In this document: one piece after another, positions 2,397-38,512 of the stretch
Layout of the letters: every line of letters starts with the position of its first letter
Position numbering within the stretch: position 1 is the stretch's first letter
Assembly (NCBI RefSeq): GCF_008932115.1
Contig: NZ_CP044543.1
Span: 1,426,001-1,490,000, forward strand
DNA from: Bradyrhizobium betae
GTDB lineage: Bacteria; Pseudomonadota; Alphaproteobacteria; Rhizobiales; Xanthobacteraceae
DNA: 64,000 nucleotides
Direction: 5' to 3'
Notes under the pieces: model-generated
Seen by the model: only the letters and a program-made list of their open reading frames with translations
Databases searched by the model: none
Told to the model about the DNA's origin: nothing
Translations under genes and position numbers: made by a program

Positions 2397-2661
2397 GCCG
2401 TCGCTCCCCGCCGCGTGCAGACCTCATGCCTGCAATTCTCTTCGATCCGCATCCCCGCGCTCTCTTGCGTTCCTAAACCGCAGATTGCGATGCGTAGCAT
2501 TGCGCGGGCGTTAATCGAATTTTCGTGTCAGGCGCGTTGGTTACCCCGGCCTGAAGGAGTTGATCGACTTGCGCGGCATCCTCCGTAGAACCCCGGAGAA
2601 AAGTGGCACGCCTTGGTACAACCAGCACCGGGACGTCGTCGTCACGCGTCCCATCCGTAGT

Positions 2662-3399
2662 CTACCGGATAAGCGCGCCCTCTCGGAGCTGCATCGGCCG
2701 CGCGGGACTATCGCGCAGGATGGGAACCCGAGCGGCCTCCGCCGCGACCCGAATGGCCGCGATGTTGCCGGCATAGTCGGCGCTGCTCTTGCCGCGAAAC
2801 ACGGCGGAACCTGCCACGAGCGTATCGGCGCCTGCGGCGGCGACAGCAGCGGCATTGTCTCGCGTGATGCCGCCATCGACCTCGAGCCGGATCGGCCGGT
2901 CGCCGATCATGCGTCGAACCCGCCTGATCTTCTCGAGCTGGGAGTCGAGGAAGGATTGGCCGCCAAAGCCGGGATTGACGGTCATGACGAGCACGAGATC
3001 GAGACGATCGAGCACGTACTCGATCGCGCCCTCGGGAGTTACCGGACACAGGCTGACGCCAGCCTTCTTGCCCAGCGCGCGGATCGCCTGGAGCGAGCGG
3101 TCGAGATGCGGACCGGCCTCGGCATGGACCGTGATGACGTCAGCACCCGCTTTCGCGAAGCCCTCCAGATAGGGATCAACAGGCGCTATCATCAGATGCA
3201 CGTCAAATATCTTCGACGTCACCGGCCGGATCGCCTTGATGATTTCGGCACCGTAACTGATGTTCGGCACGAAATGGCCATCCATGACGTCACAATGGAT
3301 CCAGTCGGCGCCGGCCGCGTCGATCGCCGCGACTTCCTCGCCGAGGCGCGCGAAATCAGCGGCCAGGATCGACGGGGCAATGATGATCTCCTTGGTCAT
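2662..3399 (-). CDS. cbbE: Ribulose-phosphate 3-epimerase (cbbE/rpe)
   Basis: Interconverts ribulose 5-phosphate and xylulose 5-phosphate in the regenerative arm of the Calvin cycle. The 245-residue TIM barrel shows the family motifs: [31 protein letters not shown] (metal-binding His and Asp), [17 protein letters not shown] and EVDGGI. Length is slightly above the usual 220-230 because of a C-terminal tail after about residue 225. Its ATG overlaps the cbbX stop codon by four bases (ATGA), so translation is probably coupled. It is the last gene of the cbb operon. Confidence 0.95.
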
Positions 3400-33252: not shown

Positions 33253-33630
33253 ATGTCCACGCGATTTCTGGCCATTTTTGTCCTGATTCTCGCCTGCGCC
33301 TCCGAGCCCGCGAGGGCCCAGGGCGTGGCGGCGCCGTTTGACGGCGATTTGCAGCGGCTGGCGGAGATCCTCGGCGGGCTGCACTATCTGCGCGGCATCT
33401 GCGGGGCCAACGAGGGCAACAAATGGCGCAACGAGATGCAGGCGCTGATCGATGCCGAAACCCCCTCGGGCGAGCGCCGCACCCGCATGATCGCCGGCTT
33501 CAACCGCGGCTATAACGGCTTCCAGCAGACCTACCGGAGCTGCACGCCGGCGGCGACGGTGGCGATCCGCCGCTACATCGAGGAAGGCTCGAAGATCTCG
33601 CGGGATCTCACGGCGCGTTACGCGAATTAA
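33253..33630 (+). CDS. TIGR02301 family exported protein
   Basis: A 125-residue protein with a signal peptide (MSTRFLAIFVLILACASEPA, cleaved near ARA). The mature part has LAEILGGLHYLRGICGANEG and FNRGYNGFQQTYRSCTPAA, which I recognise as the TIGR02301 pattern of Rhizobiales; two conserved cysteines may form a disulfide. Function is unknown. ATG 33253 is the first Met before the signal peptide. A palindromic repeat follows the stop. Confidence 0.8.
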   Translation: MSTRFLAIFVLILACASEPARAQGVAAPFDGDLQRLAEILGGLHYLRGICGANEGNKWRNEMQALIDAETPSGERRTRMIAGFNRGYNGFQQTYRSCTPAATVAIRRYIEEGSKISRDLTARYAN

Positions 33631-33638
33631 TCTCTCTC

Positions 33639-33764
33639 CGTCATTCCGGGGCGCGCGCAGCGCGAGCTATGATGCGCAATTGCGCATCTGAGAATCCATC
33701 AGGCCGCAGAGTTAGTGGCACGATGGATTCCGGCGCGCGACTTCGTCGCGCCCCGGAATGACGA
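33639..33764. repeat. Palindromic repeat, type A (CGTCATTCCGGGGCGCG)
   Basis: CGTCATTCCGGGGCGCG at the left is inverted as CGCGCCCCGGAATGACG at the right, with further inner pairing and ATGGATTCCGG. It is the same family as 19302-19409 and 62632-62735. It lies 8 bases after the TIGR02301 stop. Confidence 0.85.
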
Positions 33765-33923
33765 GAGCAGGTCGATGCGGCCGCGCCACGGGAACCCTGT
33801 CATCGTCTTTGTCCACCGCCATTAACCGTTCCTAAAGATGTGGCCTAGCGGTCGTTAATGCGCGTGCTACACCTCTGGTACAGCGCATCGCCGTGGATCG
33901 CGCCCCAGCCCTGATCGAGTTTC

Positions 33924-34190
33924 ATGAGCCAGCCGATTTCCTACGCCCCCGCCCGCGCGCCGCTGCCCGACCACGAGCAGAAACAGGCCGCACTGAGCTA
34001 TCTCAACGAGGCCTGGGCCGAAGCGCGCCATGACGGCGTCGACGGCGACTGCCTGGCGCAGGCGAGCCTGTTCGCGGCGCTCGCCGAGCTCGTCGGCACC
34101 TATGGCGAGGACGCGGTGGCGAAGTTCGTCGAGGGTTTTCCCGGCCGCATCCGCAACGGCGAATTCTCCGTCGACATCTCCCGGCAATAA
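33924..34190 (+). CDS. Conserved hypothetical protein, 88 aa
   Basis: Not recognised. The protein starts MSQPISYAPARAPLPDHEQK and contains LSYLNEAWAEARHDGVDGDC and LVGTYGEDAVAKFVEGF, a compact soluble helical fold. There is no signal peptide or membrane span. The ribosome site is weak. Base composition and codon use look like neighbouring genes, which supports it being real. Confidence 0.65.
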   Translation: MSQPISYAPARAPLPDHEQKQAALSYLNEAWAEARHDGVDGDCLAQASLFAALAELVGTYGEDAVAKFVEGFPGRIRNGEFSVDISRQ

Positions 34191-34349
34191 GCGCCGTCTC
34201 GAAAATGACCCCGCCACACGGGCGGGGCCAGTCTACGGATGAATGACTTGGCGAACGGGATTGGCGAACTGGTTCGCGAAGTCTGCAGCGTTTTTCGCAC
34301 GGAAGCCGCCTCCCCCGGACAAGCATTAGTCTCGCGATGACCGGGACAT

Positions 34350-34370
34350 ATTCCCGCTACCATCGGGAAT
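34350..34370 (-). terminator. Stem-loop downstream of the cupredoxin gene
   Basis: ATTCCCG and CGGGAAT form a perfect 7-bp stem with a 7-base loop, 15 bases past the cupredoxin stop on its strand. There is no T run, so it is a weak terminator or an mRNA end structure. Confidence 0.4.
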
Positions 34371-34385
34371 GCGCTTCCTTCTCCC

Positions 34386-34706
34386 TCACGGCGCGACCTT
34401 GAGCGTCGCTTTCATGTTGGGATGATAGCGGCAGTAATAATCGACCGTTCCCGCCTTCCTCAGAACAAACGTCGCCGACTTCTTCGGTGGCAGCATCACG
34501 TCGAAATCGCCGTTCTTCGCCGTGGCAGTGTGCGCGAACACGTCCTTGTTGATCCATTCGATGGTATCACCGACCTTCGCGAACGTTTCGGCCGGTGAGA
34601 CCACGAGATTTTCCATTGTGATCTGAATGGTCCCGGCGCGCGCCGGGACGACGATCGACAGCAAGACGACCGCAAGCGCGATCGAAGCGAGGCGTCCCGG
34701 CTTCAT
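34386..34706 (-). CDS. Cupredoxin (plastocyanin/amicyanin-like copper protein)
   Basis: A small exported copper protein (106 aa). The signal peptide is MKPGRLASIALAVVLLSIVV, cleaved near ARA. The type 1 copper ligands are visible as His in VFAHTATAK and Cys, His and Met in YYCRYHPNM. Such proteins carry electrons or bind copper in the periplasm. It follows the DUF4142 gene by 10 bases in the same direction, so it is probably in the ECF-sigma-linked transcript. Confidence 0.92.
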   Translation of the reverse strand: MKPGRLASIALAVVLLSIVVPARAGTIQITMENLVVSPAETFAKVGDTIEWINKDVFAHTATAKNGDFDVMLPPKKSATFVLRKAGTVDYYCRYHPNMKATLKVAP

Positions 34707-34716
34707 CCCACACCCC

Positions 34717-35250
34717 CTATTTCAGCTCGGCCGCGACATGCTCGGCGTGCTGCTGATGGCCCTGAAAAATCTTCAGGCCGGTCTGCAACAGGCTCTTGAG
34801 CTCGGCATTCCCGGCGGACGGGATGAGCTGGGTTTCCAGCGCGCCGTTGACCGCCTTGTGGTAGGCGACCTCGTTCGCGACATAGGCCTTGTCGAAGGCC
34901 GCGCCGCTCAGCTTGTCGAGCTCAGCCAGCTTGTCGCTCGCCTGCTTCGACAGCGCCTTGCTGGTATCGTTGTCTTCGGGCGTAACGTTCAGCTTCTTGA
35001 CCAGCGCCAGCGCCTGCTTGTTGACCGCCTCATGGTCGCGCAGCATGTCCTCTGCAAACGCCTTGACGTCCTTGTTCTTGGCCTTTTTCTGCGCCTGCAT
35101 GGCCGCGTTGATGTCGATCACGCCCGCGGTGTAGGCGATGTGAGCGATCTGCGGATCGGTGGGCTTGTCGGCTGCGCCGGCGCCCCGAAGCAGCGCGGGA
35201 CTCGACAACAGAATTGCCGCGGCGAGCGCCGCGCTCCATCGGGTGAACAT
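34717..35250 (-). CDS. DUF4142 exported protein
   Basis: A 177-residue exported protein with a signal peptide (MFTRWSAALAAAILLSSPAL). The mature helical part (DPQIAHIAYTAGVIDINAAM, DVKAFAEDMLRDHEAVNKQA, HAEHVAAELK) is the ferritin-like DUF4142 domain. Family function is not established. It lies 88 bases after the ECF sigma gene and has its own promoter-like pair identical in form to that of the sigma gene. The cupredoxin gene follows after 10 bases. Confidence 0.9.
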   Translation of the reverse strand: MFTRWSAALAAAILLSSPALLRGAGAADKPTDPQIAHIAYTAGVIDINAAMQAQKKAKNKDVKAFAEDMLRDHEAVNKQALALVKKLNVTPEDNDTSKALSKQASDKLAELDKLSGAAFDKAYVANEVAYHKAVNGALETQLIPSAGNAELKSLLQTGLKIFQGHQQHAEHVAAELK

Positions 35251-35299
35251 GTTTGAAACTCCTGTGCTGCCGGACGGTTTGCCGGCGTTGCTTCACAGG

Positions 35300-35332
35300 C
35301 ATTGGATGGGATCTTCGCGCAAACGTTCCCGA
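35300..35332 (-). promoter_or_regulatory. ECF-type promoter upstream of the DUF4142 gene
   Basis: On the coding strand TCGGGAACGTTT is followed by CATCCAATG, with 16 bases between GGGAAC and CATCCAATG. The promoter-like sequence upstream of the sigma gene (36058-36090) has the same two elements and exactly the same spacing. It lies 50 bases before the DUF4142 ATG. GGAAC is the usual -35 core of many alphaproteobacterial ECF sigma factors. Confidence 0.72.
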
Positions 35333-35338
35333 AAAACT

Positions 35339-36028
35339 TCAGCCGCCGCTGCCGAGCCGCTTCAGCACTGATACGGTCAGCCGCTCGCAGCGCCACCCGG
35401 CGAACGGGAACGCATCCATCACCACCGGGCCGATCTCCTTCTCGACGTTCTCGCGCAGCATGTTGCGCGCACGGTGCAGCCGCGTCTTCACGGTCTCGGG
35501 CTTGACGCCGAGCAGATCGGCGGTCTCCTCGATGTTCATCCCCTCCATGACGCGCGCGACGAAGACCATGCGGAACACATCCGGCAGTTCGTCGATTGCG
35601 CGTTCGACGACGCGCTGGATTTCACGTTGGGCCATGGTCCTTTCCGGATCGCCTGCGGGAGAAACGGGAAATTTTATGATCTGTGCGTCGAGCGCCTCTT
35701 CCGGCAGCGCGCCGAGCTCGACATGCGGCTTGCGGCTTCGCGCCCGGCCAAGTGCCTCGTTGATGGCAATACGGGACAGCCAGGTCGAGAGCCCGGACTC
35801 GCCGCGAAAGCCGTCCAGATGTGTGAAGGCCCGGACATAGGTTTCCTGCACCACGTCCTCGGCTTCGCTGTCGCTGCGCAGGATACCGCGCGCTAGACGG
35901 TAGAGCCTGCGGTTGTTGGCCTGCATGATCTCGCGCAGTGCGGCCTCGTCACGGCCCCGTGCGCGGTCGACAAGTTCGGCTTCCGATGCTCTGGCGCCGG
36001 CGGACAGGCCGGCTGCGGTCCGCTGCAT
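35339..36028 (-). CDS. ECF-family RNA polymerase sigma factor
   Basis: A 229-residue sigma factor. Region 2 covers about 20-90 (LYRLARGILRSDSEAEDVVQ, then ETYVRAFTHLDGF and GLSTWLSRIAINEALGRARS); region 4 covers about 130-195 (IDELPDVFRMVFVARVMEGM, IEETADLLGVKPETVKTRLH). A 34-residue tail follows. ATG 36028 is chosen because AGGTGA lies 6 bases upstream; the longer frame runs through the promoter. No anti-sigma gene is adjacent. It appears to drive its own gene and the DUF4142-cupredoxin genes. Confidence 0.93.
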   Translation of the reverse strand: MQRTAAGLSAGARASEAELVDRARGRDEAALREIMQANNRRLYRLARGILRSDSEAEDVVQETYVRAFTHLDGFRGESGLSTWLSRIAINEALGRARSRKPHVELGALPEEALDAQIIKFPVSPAGDPERTMAQREIQRVVERAIDELPDVFRMVFVARVMEGMNIEETADLLGVKPETVKTRLHRARNMLRENVEKEIGPVVMDAFPFAGWRCERLTVSVLKRLGSGG

Positions 36029-36057
36029 GATGGTCACCTGTTTCCATTCGTTCCGGA

Positions 36058-36090
36058 CATTGGATGCAGGCCTGCGATAAAGGTTCCCGA
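36058..36090 (-). promoter_or_regulatory. ECF-type promoter upstream of the sigma factor gene
   Basis: TCGGGAACCTTT and CATCCAATG lie on the coding strand with 16 bases between GGGAAC and CATCCAATG, 30 bases before the sigma gene ATG. The same pair is found before the DUF4142 gene, suggesting autoregulation. Confidence 0.72.
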
Positions 36091-36134
36091 CTTTCTTCCT
36101 ACTCTCCTCTGGAGGGGGAGGGTAAGCGAGTTCC

Positions 36135-37001
36135 CTAATCTGTCTCGATCGGCAGCGCCGGATCTCTCGCCCACTCCCCCATCGAGGCGTCATACAGCGT
36201 CAGCTTGTCGTAGCCGAGCTGCGTCAGCAGCAGCAGGTCGATCGTCGCCGAGATGCCGCCGCCGCAATAGCAGATCACGGTCTTGTCGCGCGTGACGCCC
36301 TGGGCCGCGAAGCTGGCTTCAGCATCGGCAAGATTCGTCAGCGTCTTGTCGGCATTGGTGAGCGATGCGGCCGGAACATTGACGCTGCCGGGAACGCGGC
36401 CGGGCCGGCCATAGCGGCTCGGCTCGAGGCCGCGATGAAACTGCGGCCCAAGCGCGTTGACGGTCACGGTCGAGGGATCGCCGATGCGCGCCTTCACGGC
36501 GGTCTTGTCGACGAAGAAGCCCGCGCGCGGCGCGGCCTTGAAGGTCGTGGCCGGATAGCCCTTCGGTGCGCCCGTCTCGATCGGCCGCCCCTCTTGCTTC
36601 CATTTGTCGAAACCACCATCGAGCACGCGCGCGTCGACACCGAGCGAGCGCAGCATCCACCAGAACCGCGTCGACCACATCATCGTGCCGATGCTGTAGA
36701 GCACGATGGTCTTGGATGCATCGAGGCCGTGGCGGCCGAAGCCGGCTTCGAGCTGCGCCACGCCGGGCATCATGAAGAACTGCTCCGCCGAACTGTCGGA
36801 GAACTCGCCTTGCAGGTCGAGGAAGTCGGCGCCCGGGATGTGGCCGGCTGCGAAGGTCTTGTCGCCGGGCACCGCGCGATAGGGCACCTCGCTGCCGGGT
36901 GGCACAGGTTCGTTGTAGGTCGTGCAGTCGTAGAGGCGGAGATTGGGATCGCCGAGGATGGCTGCGAGTTGCTCGGTGGTGATGAGGGCATTCCGACTCA
37001 T
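36135..37001 (-). CDS. sseA: Sulfurtransferase, two rhodanese domains (SseA-like)
   Basis: A 288-residue enzyme with two rhodanese domains. The first (about 1-140) includes HIPGADFLDL and IVLYSIGTMMWSTRFWWML and is inactive. The second has the active Cys in VICYCGGGISATIDLLLL, with loop CGGGIS close to the CGSGVT of 3-mercaptopyruvate sulfurtransferases. It probably moves sulfur from 3-mercaptopyruvate or thiosulfate to thiol or cyanide acceptors. GGGAGA precedes the ATG. Confidence 0.9.
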   Translation of the reverse strand: MSRNALITTEQLAAILGDPNLRLYDCTTYNEPVPPGSEVPYRAVPGDKTFAAGHIPGADFLDLQGEFSDSSAEQFFMMPGVAQLEAGFGRHGLDASKTIVLYSIGTMMWSTRFWWMLRSLGVDARVLDGGFDKWKQEGRPIETGAPKGYPATTFKAAPRAGFFVDKTAVKARIGDPSTVTVNALGPQFHRGLEPSRYGRPGRVPGSVNVPAASLTNADKTLTNLADAEASFAAQGVTRDKTVICYCGGGISATIDLLLLTQLGYDKLTLYDASMGEWARDPALPIETD

Positions 37002-37031
37002 TGGATGTCTCCCGTCATATGCTCACGATCT

Positions 37032-37159
37032 CCGTCACCCTGAGGTGGCCGCTTCTTCAGCGGCCCTCGAAGGGCGACGGCCACCAGCGGGGCCGCTCTT
37101 CCTTCGAGGCTTGCCATGCGGTGCAAAGGCACCGCATGGCGCGCACATCAGGATGACGG
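37032..37159. repeat. Palindromic repeat (CCGTCACCCTGAGGTGGCCG type)
   Basis: CCGTCACCCTGAGGTG at the left faces CACATCAGGATGACGG at the right. The inside holds further hairpins (GCCGCTTCTTCAGCGGC; CCATGCGGTGCAAAGGCACC then GCATGG). It lies between the sulfurtransferase start and the end of the dihydroorotase-like gene. Confidence 0.72.
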
Positions 37160-37177
37160 TTTAAAGAGCAGCAGCGC

Positions 37178-38512
37178 CTACTGCTTCAGCGTCTCCAGGA
37201 ACCGCACCGGCTCGCCTTGCGACGGCGTCACCAGTTCGCCCTGCCACATCACGCGGCGGCCGCGGATGAAGGTGCCGACGGGCCAGCCCGTGACGCGGAC
37301 GCCGTCATAGGGCGTCCAGCCCACCTTGGACGCGACCCATTTGTTGGTGATGGTCTCGCTGCGCTTGAGATCGACGACCGTGAAGTCGGCGTCGTAGCCT
37401 GCGGCAATGCGGCCCTTGCAGGCCATGTTGTAGAGACGCGCAGGGCCGGCGCTGGTGAGGTCGACGAAGCGCGCAAGCGACAGGCGGCCGGCGTTGACGT
37501 GGTCGAGCATGAGCGGCACCAGCGTTTGCACGCCGGTCATGCCGGAGGGCGATGCCGGATAGGTCTTCGACTTCTCTTCCAGCGTATGCGGGGCATGGTC
37601 GGAGCCGAGCACGTCGATGATGCCCTGCTCGATGCCGCGCCAGATGCCGGCGCGGTGATCGGCGCCGCGTACCGGCGGGTTCATCTGCGCCAGCGTGCCG
37701 AGCCGCTCGTAGCATTCGGGTGCGACCAGCGTCAGGTGATGCGGCGTCGCCTCGCAGGAGGCGACGTCCTTGTGGTCGCGCAGGAATTCGATCTCTTCCC
37801 TGGTCGAGATATGCAGCACATGGATGCGCTTGCCGGTCTCGTGCGCGAGCTTGACCAGACGCTGCGTCGCCATCAGCGCCGCGGTCTCGTCGCGCCAGAC
37901 CGGATGCGAGCGCGGATCGCCCTCGATGCGCAGCGGCTTGCGCTCGTTGAGGCGGTACTCGTCCTCGGCGTGGAACGCGGCGCGGCGCCGGATCACCTGG
38001 AAGATGCGGCGCAGGCTCTCATCGTCCTCCACCAGCAGCGCACCAGTCGAGGAACCGATGAACACCTTGACGCCGGCGCAGCCCGGCGCGCGTTCCAGCA
38101 CGGGCAGGTCCTGCACGTTCTCGCGGGTGCCGCCGATAAAGAAGGCGAAATCGCAGTGCATGCGATGATGGGCGCGCTTCACCTTGTCGGTGAAGGTAGC
38201 CTCCGTCACCGTGAGCGGCGCCGTGTTCGGCATCTCGAACACGGCGGTGACGCCGCCCATCACGGCGCTGCGCGAGCCGGTTTCGAGATCTTCCTTCTGC
38301 TCCAGCCCGGGCTCGCGGAAATGCACCTGCGTGTCCATCACGCCGGGCAGGATGTGCAGGCCCTTGCAGTCGATCACTTCGGCGGCGGAGGCCTGCGACA
38401 GCGGGCCCAGCTCGGCGATACGGCCATTGGCGATGCCGATATCGCGAACACCCTCGCCGTCCTGGTTGACGACGGTGCCGCCCTTGAGGATCACGTCGAA
38501 GCGCTGGGTCAT
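37178..38512 (-). CDS. Dihydroorotase-like amidohydrolase with altered metal motif
   Basis: A 444-residue amidohydrolase of the dihydroorotase/hydantoinase group. The first metal motif reads DTQVHFREPG (60-69), with Gln62 where DHOase normally has His (D-x-H-x-H-x-R). The others are kept: GVKVFIGSSTG (Lys149), FHAEDEYRLNE, HVLHISTREE and GSDHAPHT. I recall this variant in other Rhizobiales proteins named dihydroorotase, so it is a stable subgroup, not a local defect. It is not next to pyrB. Divergent from ygfZ. Dihydroorotase activity is likely but not certain. Confidence 0.82.
   Translation of the reverse strand: MTQRFDVILKGGTVVNQDGEGVRDIGIANGRIAELGPLSQASAAEVIDCKGLHILPGVMDTQVHFREPGLEQKEDLETGSRSAVMGGVTAVFEMPNTAPLTVTEATFTDKVKRAHHRMHCDFAFFIGGTRENVQDLPVLERAPGCAGVKVFIGSSTGALLVEDDESLRRIFQVIRRRAAFHAEDEYRLNERKPLRIEGDPRSHPVWRDETAALMATQRLVKLAHETGKRIHVLHISTREEIEFLRDHKDVASCEATPHHLTLVAPECYERLGTLAQMNPPVRGADHRAGIWRGIEQGIIDVLGSDHAPHTLEEKSKTYPASPSGMTGVQTLVPLMLDHVNAGRLSLARFVDLTSAGPARLYNMACKGRIAAGYDADFTVVDLKRSETITNKWVASKVGWTPYDGVRVTGWPVGTFIRGRRVMWQGELVTPSQGEPVRFLETLKQ

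Follow-up and report, generated by a model that had tools for sequence, protein, structure and literature searches.

A stretch of 64,000 nucleotides of Bradyrhizobium betae (the window) carries an ECF sigma factor gene with genes for a DUF4142 protein and a cupredoxin behind it, and the same ECF29-type promoter stands before the sigma gene and before the DUF4142-cupredoxin unit. Very probably one sigma factor serves both promoters, its own and that of its neighbours; this is the best reading because both elements are of the ECF29 type and both are conserved across relatives. The feature is real, well conserved and already described in kind, since the locus is, judged from its sequence, the orthologue of rpoE8-SMb20593-amcY of Sinorhizobium meliloti. 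What we add is evolutionary support for the second promoter, a set of alternative partner proteins, and an unlinked target, a second folE gene, in congeneric genomes.

Gene content and promoter motif of the window

The initial annotation of this DNA had described a shared signature with a 16-base gap before the sigma and DUF4142 genes, and the sequence confirms it. On the minus strand, TCGGGAAC-CTTTATCGCAGGCCTG-CATCCAATG lies upstream of the sigma gene and TCGGGAAC-GTTTGCGCGAAGATCC-CATCCAATG upstream of the DUF4142 gene, with 16 bases between GGGAAC and CATCCAATG at both. The -35 GGGAAC and -10 GCATCCAA that define an ECF29 promoter are present upstream of the sigma gene. In the window, GGGAAC-N(15-18)-CATCCAA matched twice, whereas 100 shuffled sequences gave 0.00 matches on average. 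The genome-wide scan that the same annotation had proposed returned these two sites, both at this locus, as the only exact matches to GGGAAC-N(15-18)-CATCCAA in the whole 7,419,402-base genome; the reversed pattern matched once.

Table 1. Positions (window coordinates) of the features described, and loci outside the window with the same type of promoter
Feature	Position or loci	Strand	Details
ECF29-type promoter of the sigma gene	36060-36088	-	-35 GGGAAC 36083-36088, 16-base spacer, -10 CATCCAA 36060-36066
ECF sigma factor gene, 229 aa	35339-36028	-	Regions 2 and 4; domain search; NCBIfam PRK11922
Codons for FPFAGWRC, residues 207-214	35387-35410	-	C214 is the sole cysteine of the sigma factor
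Weak terminator-like hairpin	35339-35355	-	At the stop codon of the sigma gene, close ahead of the DUF4142 promoter
ECF29-type promoter of the DUF4142-cupredoxin unit	35302-35330	-	-35 GGGAAC 35325-35330, 16-base spacer, -10 CATCCAA 35302-35308
DUF4142 protein gene, 177 aa	34717-35250	-	Helical bundle, ferritin-like; N terminus judged by eye to be of secretion type
Cupredoxin gene, 106 aa	34386-34706	-	Type-1 copper ligands H59, C92, H95, M98
Second-folE loci with ECF29-type N16 motif	L127-L131, L136-L165, L175-L177, L180-L185

Relaxed scans of the genome added little. With one mismatch and a fixed N16 there were seven further matches, against four for the backwards control (at most one mismatch). 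Five of the six sites inspected (L108-L113) lay inside or opposite a long ORF; the nearest ORF start to site L111 was at least 242 bp away, and L114 repeats the sequence of L113. On these counts a wider regulon in this genome was rejected. The looser pattern GGAAC-N(16-18)-CATCCAA yielded one extra place (L003), and a scan that also allowed CGTCCAA as the -10 element found the two known sites and no third, with four matches in its backwards control. Separately, a further copy of CATCCAATG (window 36999-37007, minus strand) coincides in part with the rhodanese start codon, with no GGGAAC at the right distance, probably by chance.

The window sigma factor has the ECF architecture of regions 2 and 4 only and scored 325.6 bits against NCBIfam PRK11922 (cut-off 204). 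The helical bundle of the DUF4142 protein contains conserved His, Asp and Glu residues. The cupredoxin carries the His, Cys, His and Met ligands of a type-1 copper site, each shared by 98% or more of 81 sequences and aligned with amicyanin, and it scored 31.5 bits against the amicyanin equivalog TIGR02657, below the cut-off of 110.2. The DUF4142 and cupredoxin genes are separated by 10 bp and are therefore probably on one transcript. The upstream neighbour encodes a rhodanese-type sulfurtransferase; among the best 80 of 501 relatives, 44 loci (L017-L060) have this gene near sigma and 36 do not. Terminator-like hairpins numbered six in the region against 1.9 in shuffled sequence, which is weak evidence, and an Rfam search of 33500-38000 returned no RNA element at gathering score.

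The absence of an adjacent anti-sigma gene, also stated in the initial annotation, held up. No linked anti-sigma gene was found among the window ORFs or when ORFs of four loci (the top 14 listed per locus) were compared with all 80 related loci; the most widely shared ORFs overlap the sigma, DUF4142 or cupredoxin genes, and no conserved anti-sigma gene was found nearby.

Conservation in relatives and candidate targets outside the locus

A contig scan supplied the related loci, of which the best 80 of 501 were all used; these are close relatives rather than independent events, the nearest named one to the sigma factor being Bradyrhizobium barranii (98%). Among them, DUF4142 was present in 79 loci and the cupredoxin in all 80. 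When up to two mismatches in 13 positions and spacers of 14-19 were permitted, the sigma promoter was recovered in 78/80 loci (60 exact, 15 with one mismatch, three with two) and the DUF4142 promoter likewise in 78/80 (67 exact, ten with one mismatch, one with two), and the spacer was 16 in every promoter found. The sigma promoter was missed at L088 and L089, and the DUF4142 promoter at L077 and at L071, which lacks DUF4142.

The motif also follows the genes through rearrangement. Where the order is DUF4142-cupredoxin-sigma (L009, L102) or TTHB210-like protein-cupredoxin-sigma (L010, L098), a single exact N16 motif stands at the head; where sigma is divergent from DUF4142-cupredoxin (L100, L101), each locus has an N16 and an N17 motif, one exact and one with a single mismatch. 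The second promoter is thus best regarded as functional, because it is found in 78/80 loci, its spacer is fixed at 16 and the motif stays at the heads of rearranged operons. A TTHB210-like exported protein together with a larger cupredoxin was seen near the sigma gene in five loci; the motif is exact in L010 and L098 and was not found in L014, L015 and L016. A literature search on TTHB210 found no paper. Eight further sigma loci (L011-L013, L103-L107) have neither motif nor cupredoxin within about 1.5 kb on each side, so the association applies to part of the larger sigma family.

L088 (3873-3900) and L089 (3906-3933) carry an ECF29 motif on the minus strand before a divergent gene for a DUF2231 membrane protein; an invertible promoter was considered there and rejected, as the listed inverted repeats do not frame the motif in the manner of a switch. 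L099 encodes, downstream of sigma and behind a one-mismatch motif, a histidine-rich, probably helical exported protein (2599-3344) with no significant Pfam match. One DUF4142 protein (P0001) has an internal duplication, and on one contig an open frame (P0004) leads from sigma region 4 into DUF4142, which looks like a frame that just runs through the intergenic region.

Across 195 congeneric genomes, an exact match (N15-17) occurred somewhere in all 136 sigma-bearing genomes, with at least two matches in 111, and in 10 of the 59 genomes without the sigma factor, none of which had two. Among the matches listed, one lay within 1.3 kb of sigma in 66/69 sigma-bearing genomes, the exceptions being G015, G024 and G120. 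In a class-wide set of 385 genomes, GGGAACCTT-N13-CATCCAA was present in five (the window genome included) and the backwards control in none; all five belong to the 11 genomes that have this sigma factor. As motif and sigma gene share one locus, the co-occurrence comes mostly from linkage, and the counts mainly show that the motif is kept at the locus and is rare elsewhere. A single in-frame stop interrupts the sigma gene in G023, G024, G028, G099 and G103 (137 matches in 136 genomes), which suggests occasional loss. Other congener matches lay inside or opposite long ORFs (L115, L116, L119, L132-L134) or were sigma loci (L118, L120). One match in a genome without sigma (L117, in G021) is an exact GGGAAC-N16-CATCCAA whose spacer starts differently; an ORF begins 224 bp downstream of it, and its sequence was also matched in G059, G111, G124 and G185. 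Another exact motif, in a single genome (L135 in G005, at 1466 on the minus strand), lies 110 bp before an ORF that by eye resembles an exported truncated-haemoglobin-type protein.

The exact motifs away from sigma in G001, G024, G050, G099 and G114 all lie just before folE, the folate-pathway gene for GTP cyclohydrolase I (L127-L131), and belong to second copies of that gene. A search with this protein found folE in 193/195 congeners, many of them with two copies. The 30 best matches were all of the second type and unlinked to sigma, and all 30 had the motif with N16 (12 exact, 17 with one mismatch, one with two), as did nine of nine further second-type genes picked by hand. No motif was found before the eight housekeeping folE genes examined, before more distant second copies in G008 and G026, or before the second folE of the window genome itself, which is 68% identical to the query. 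With no motif at that gene and no third site, the regulon in this genome looks confined to one locus. In the 30 loci the -10 element is CATC in half and CGTCCAA in half. Over all 39 genes, every one of the 15 CATC forms is in a sigma-bearing genome, while the 24 CGTCCAA-like forms divide into 19 with sigma and five without (p 0.14); the five sigma-less genomes imply that another sigma factor may read the CGTCCAA variant. In two cases folE adjoins the sigma gene itself: in L099 (747-1407; exact motif, N16) and in a Mesorhizobium locus, L122 (1680-2405; one mismatch, N16).

An unlinked gene behind the same kind of promoter offers a lead to the purpose of the response. GTP cyclohydrolase I belongs to the zinc enzymes, and for this reason a spare FolE could stand in for one damaged by metal.

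Regulation of the locus

From the observed sequence, its conservation and the orthology, we infer how the promoters would be used in this strain. Polymerase carrying the 229-residue sigma factor would read GGGAAC-N16-CATCCAA before its own gene and before the DUF4142-cupredoxin pair, with starts predicted about 10 bases past CATCCAA, near 36050 for sigma and 35292 for DUF4142. The output would be a type-1 cupredoxin together with a ferritin-like DUF4142 protein, both exported. The sigma factor would probably be present at a low level and inactive until a signal freed it, through its FPFAGxRC tail or an unlinked factor, and positive feedback would then amplify the response. In those relatives that have such a promoter at the second folE, GTP cyclohydrolase I would be part of it as well.

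The initial annotation had proposed a self-activating sigma factor over the DUF4142 and copper proteins. The conserved ECF29-type promoters at both genes favour this proposal, whereas its self-activation part meets mixed evidence in the available text of the 2018 S. meliloti study (PMC6180224): one mapped rpoE8 start falls on the motif, and yet 126-fold over-expression of RpoE8 produced no detectable target and raised neither SMb20593 nor amcY. Over-expression without effect most likely means that the activity of the sigma factor, and not its amount alone, is controlled, and control through the tail or an unlinked factor fits these observations. The tail extends about 30 residues past region 4, as expected of the ECF29 C-terminal extension, and contains FPFAGxRC in 81/81 sigma sequences. 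In the structure model this region is a low-confidence loop followed by a short helix, and the mean pLDDT of 69 is too low to place the tail. The sigma factor has one cysteine in 74 of the 81 sequences and two in seven. Relatives that lack the promoter motif or the cupredoxin also retain the cysteine, within looser forms of FPFAGxRC. A role of the tail as a copper sensor was set aside as no more than speculation, given that C214 is single and that the cysteine also occurs in such relatives.

The DUF4142 protein looks exported. DUF305/CopM and Dps are equally good matches to its modelled fold, and the Pfam DUF305 profile gave 19.6 bits, under the curated cut-off of 27. The protein may bind metal; this role, like that of the tail as a control point, is suggested by fold and conservation. 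A tentative and rather doubtful extension, on a metal or redox theme, is that of a copper- or oxidant-responsive ECF29 factor, silenced by its tail, that supplies the cupredoxin and an exported metal-handling partner (the CopM-like DUF4142 or the TTHB210-like protein), with a spare FolE in some relatives. If true, it would explain the null result of RpoE8 over-expression (PMC6180224, available text) and would link the signal to FolE damaged by metal. Our confidence in any specific inducing signal is low.

Other arrangements have to be weighed against one sigma factor serving two promoters. The S. meliloti data lend themselves to a division in which the sigma factor serves its own promoter and the DUF4142-cupredoxin unit is mainly under another sigma factor or indirect repression, the second motif being minor or a relict: in addition to the lack of activation on over-expression, the available text of PMC6180224 reports a 2.6- and a 3.2-fold rise of amcY in strains deleted for rpoE8-SMb20593. 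We nevertheless hold this decidedly unlikely, as the second motif is kept with fixed spacing in 78/80 loci and is exact more often than that of sigma (67 against 60), and a search of 34200-37200 found no sigma-70-like promoter (0.3 expected). Also improbable, in our estimate, is government of the sigma gene from outside the locus, by the general stress sigma factor EcfG for example or by read-through from the gene upstream, with feedback a minor matter. The sigma genes of L088 and L089 have lost the self-type motif; in its place stands GGAAC-N16-CGTT, a sequence we take to resemble an EcfG promoter. The target rows for RpoE2/RpoE5 in Table 1 of PMC6180224, as far as that table is available, look alike, and 46 bp separate the end of the rhodanese gene from the -35 element of the sigma promoter in the window. 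Against such outside control, the self-type promoter is kept in 78/80 loci with no EcfG-like site in the stretch scanned at those 78, and in the window CGTT, expected 16-17 bases after GGAAC at an EcfG (ECF15) target, is absent, the -10 element being CATCCAA.

The initial annotation had also named the DUF4142 protein as a candidate for sensing. In such a scheme its periplasmic state would control sigma, and the tight linkage in 79/80 of the best 80 of 501 loci speaks for such a part. The scheme is not supported, and we regard it as very unlikely: the protein has a secretion-type N terminus and its model shows no confident membrane-spanning link, and it is missing at L071 and replaced at L010 and L098, loci that keep sigma, promoter and cupredoxin. 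It is extremely improbable that the repeated element is a coincidence or the binding site of a different regulator, since the shuffles, the two genome sites, the 78/80 conservation, the 30/30 second folE genes and the published rpoE8 start on the same element (PMC6180224, available text) all speak against it.

Comparison with known systems

A literature search for ECF sigma factors combined with DUF4142 found no paper on the pairing; in the available text of PMC11317620, which deals with DUF4142 alongside a sigma factor, the cluster has its own sigma/anti-sigma pair. ECF29, with a Bradyrhizobium lablabi example, is listed under 'Others' among the groups with regulatory extensions in the available part of PMC8999054 (Table 2). 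In Azospirillum brasilense Sp7, the sigma factor RpoE8 is reported, from a lacZ fusion assayed in E. coli, to drive its own promoter, and its operon includes a protein annotated as a periplasmic heavy metal sensor (PMC12826043). This system has the name alone in common with the window locus; the term ECF29 does not occur in the available text of that paper, and the likeness is one of description. CorE/CorE2 of Myxococcus and OrbS of Burkholderia have an on-board metal sensor and, like the window sigma factor, a C-terminal extension in place of an anti-sigma factor. They differ in having cysteine clusters (PMC9023288, available text), whereas the window sigma factor has one cysteine and no CorE/OrbS-type cluster in its tail.

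The closest system is that of S. meliloti, for which the available text of the 2018 paper (PMC6180224) already describes the ECF29 promoter, the gene trio and the missing anti-sigma factor. There RpoE8, of group ECF29, is encoded upstream of SMb20593 and the amicyanin-like AmcY; its promoter is GGGAAC / GCATCCAA with a 5'-RACE start that fits the motif (Table 1), the same motif stands before SMb20593, where no start site was found, and no anti-sigma factor is given for RpoE8. In S. meliloti strain Ak57 (L121) the triad is present with annotated DUF4142 and cupredoxin, identities to the window proteins are 59% (sigma), 75% (DUF4142) and 51% (cupredoxin), and both promoters have N16. Compared by eye, 31 bases of the second L121 promoter are identical to the published sequence, and the first promoter has a single difference. 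The triad, the two promoters and these identities together identify the window locus, at the level of sequence, as the rpoE8-SMb20593-amcY orthologue, with the same gene order, two N16 promoters and no anti-sigma gene. The upstream neighbour differs, being an acylphosphatase gene in S. meliloti and the rhodanese gene in the window, and SMb20593 is called a putative outer membrane protein in the available text of PMC6180224, whereas its Ak57 copy is annotated as DUF4142. As far as its available text goes, that paper left open the meaning of the second motif and the control of the sigma factor; the conservation of the second promoter and the second folE now make the unexplained RpoE8 null result testable.
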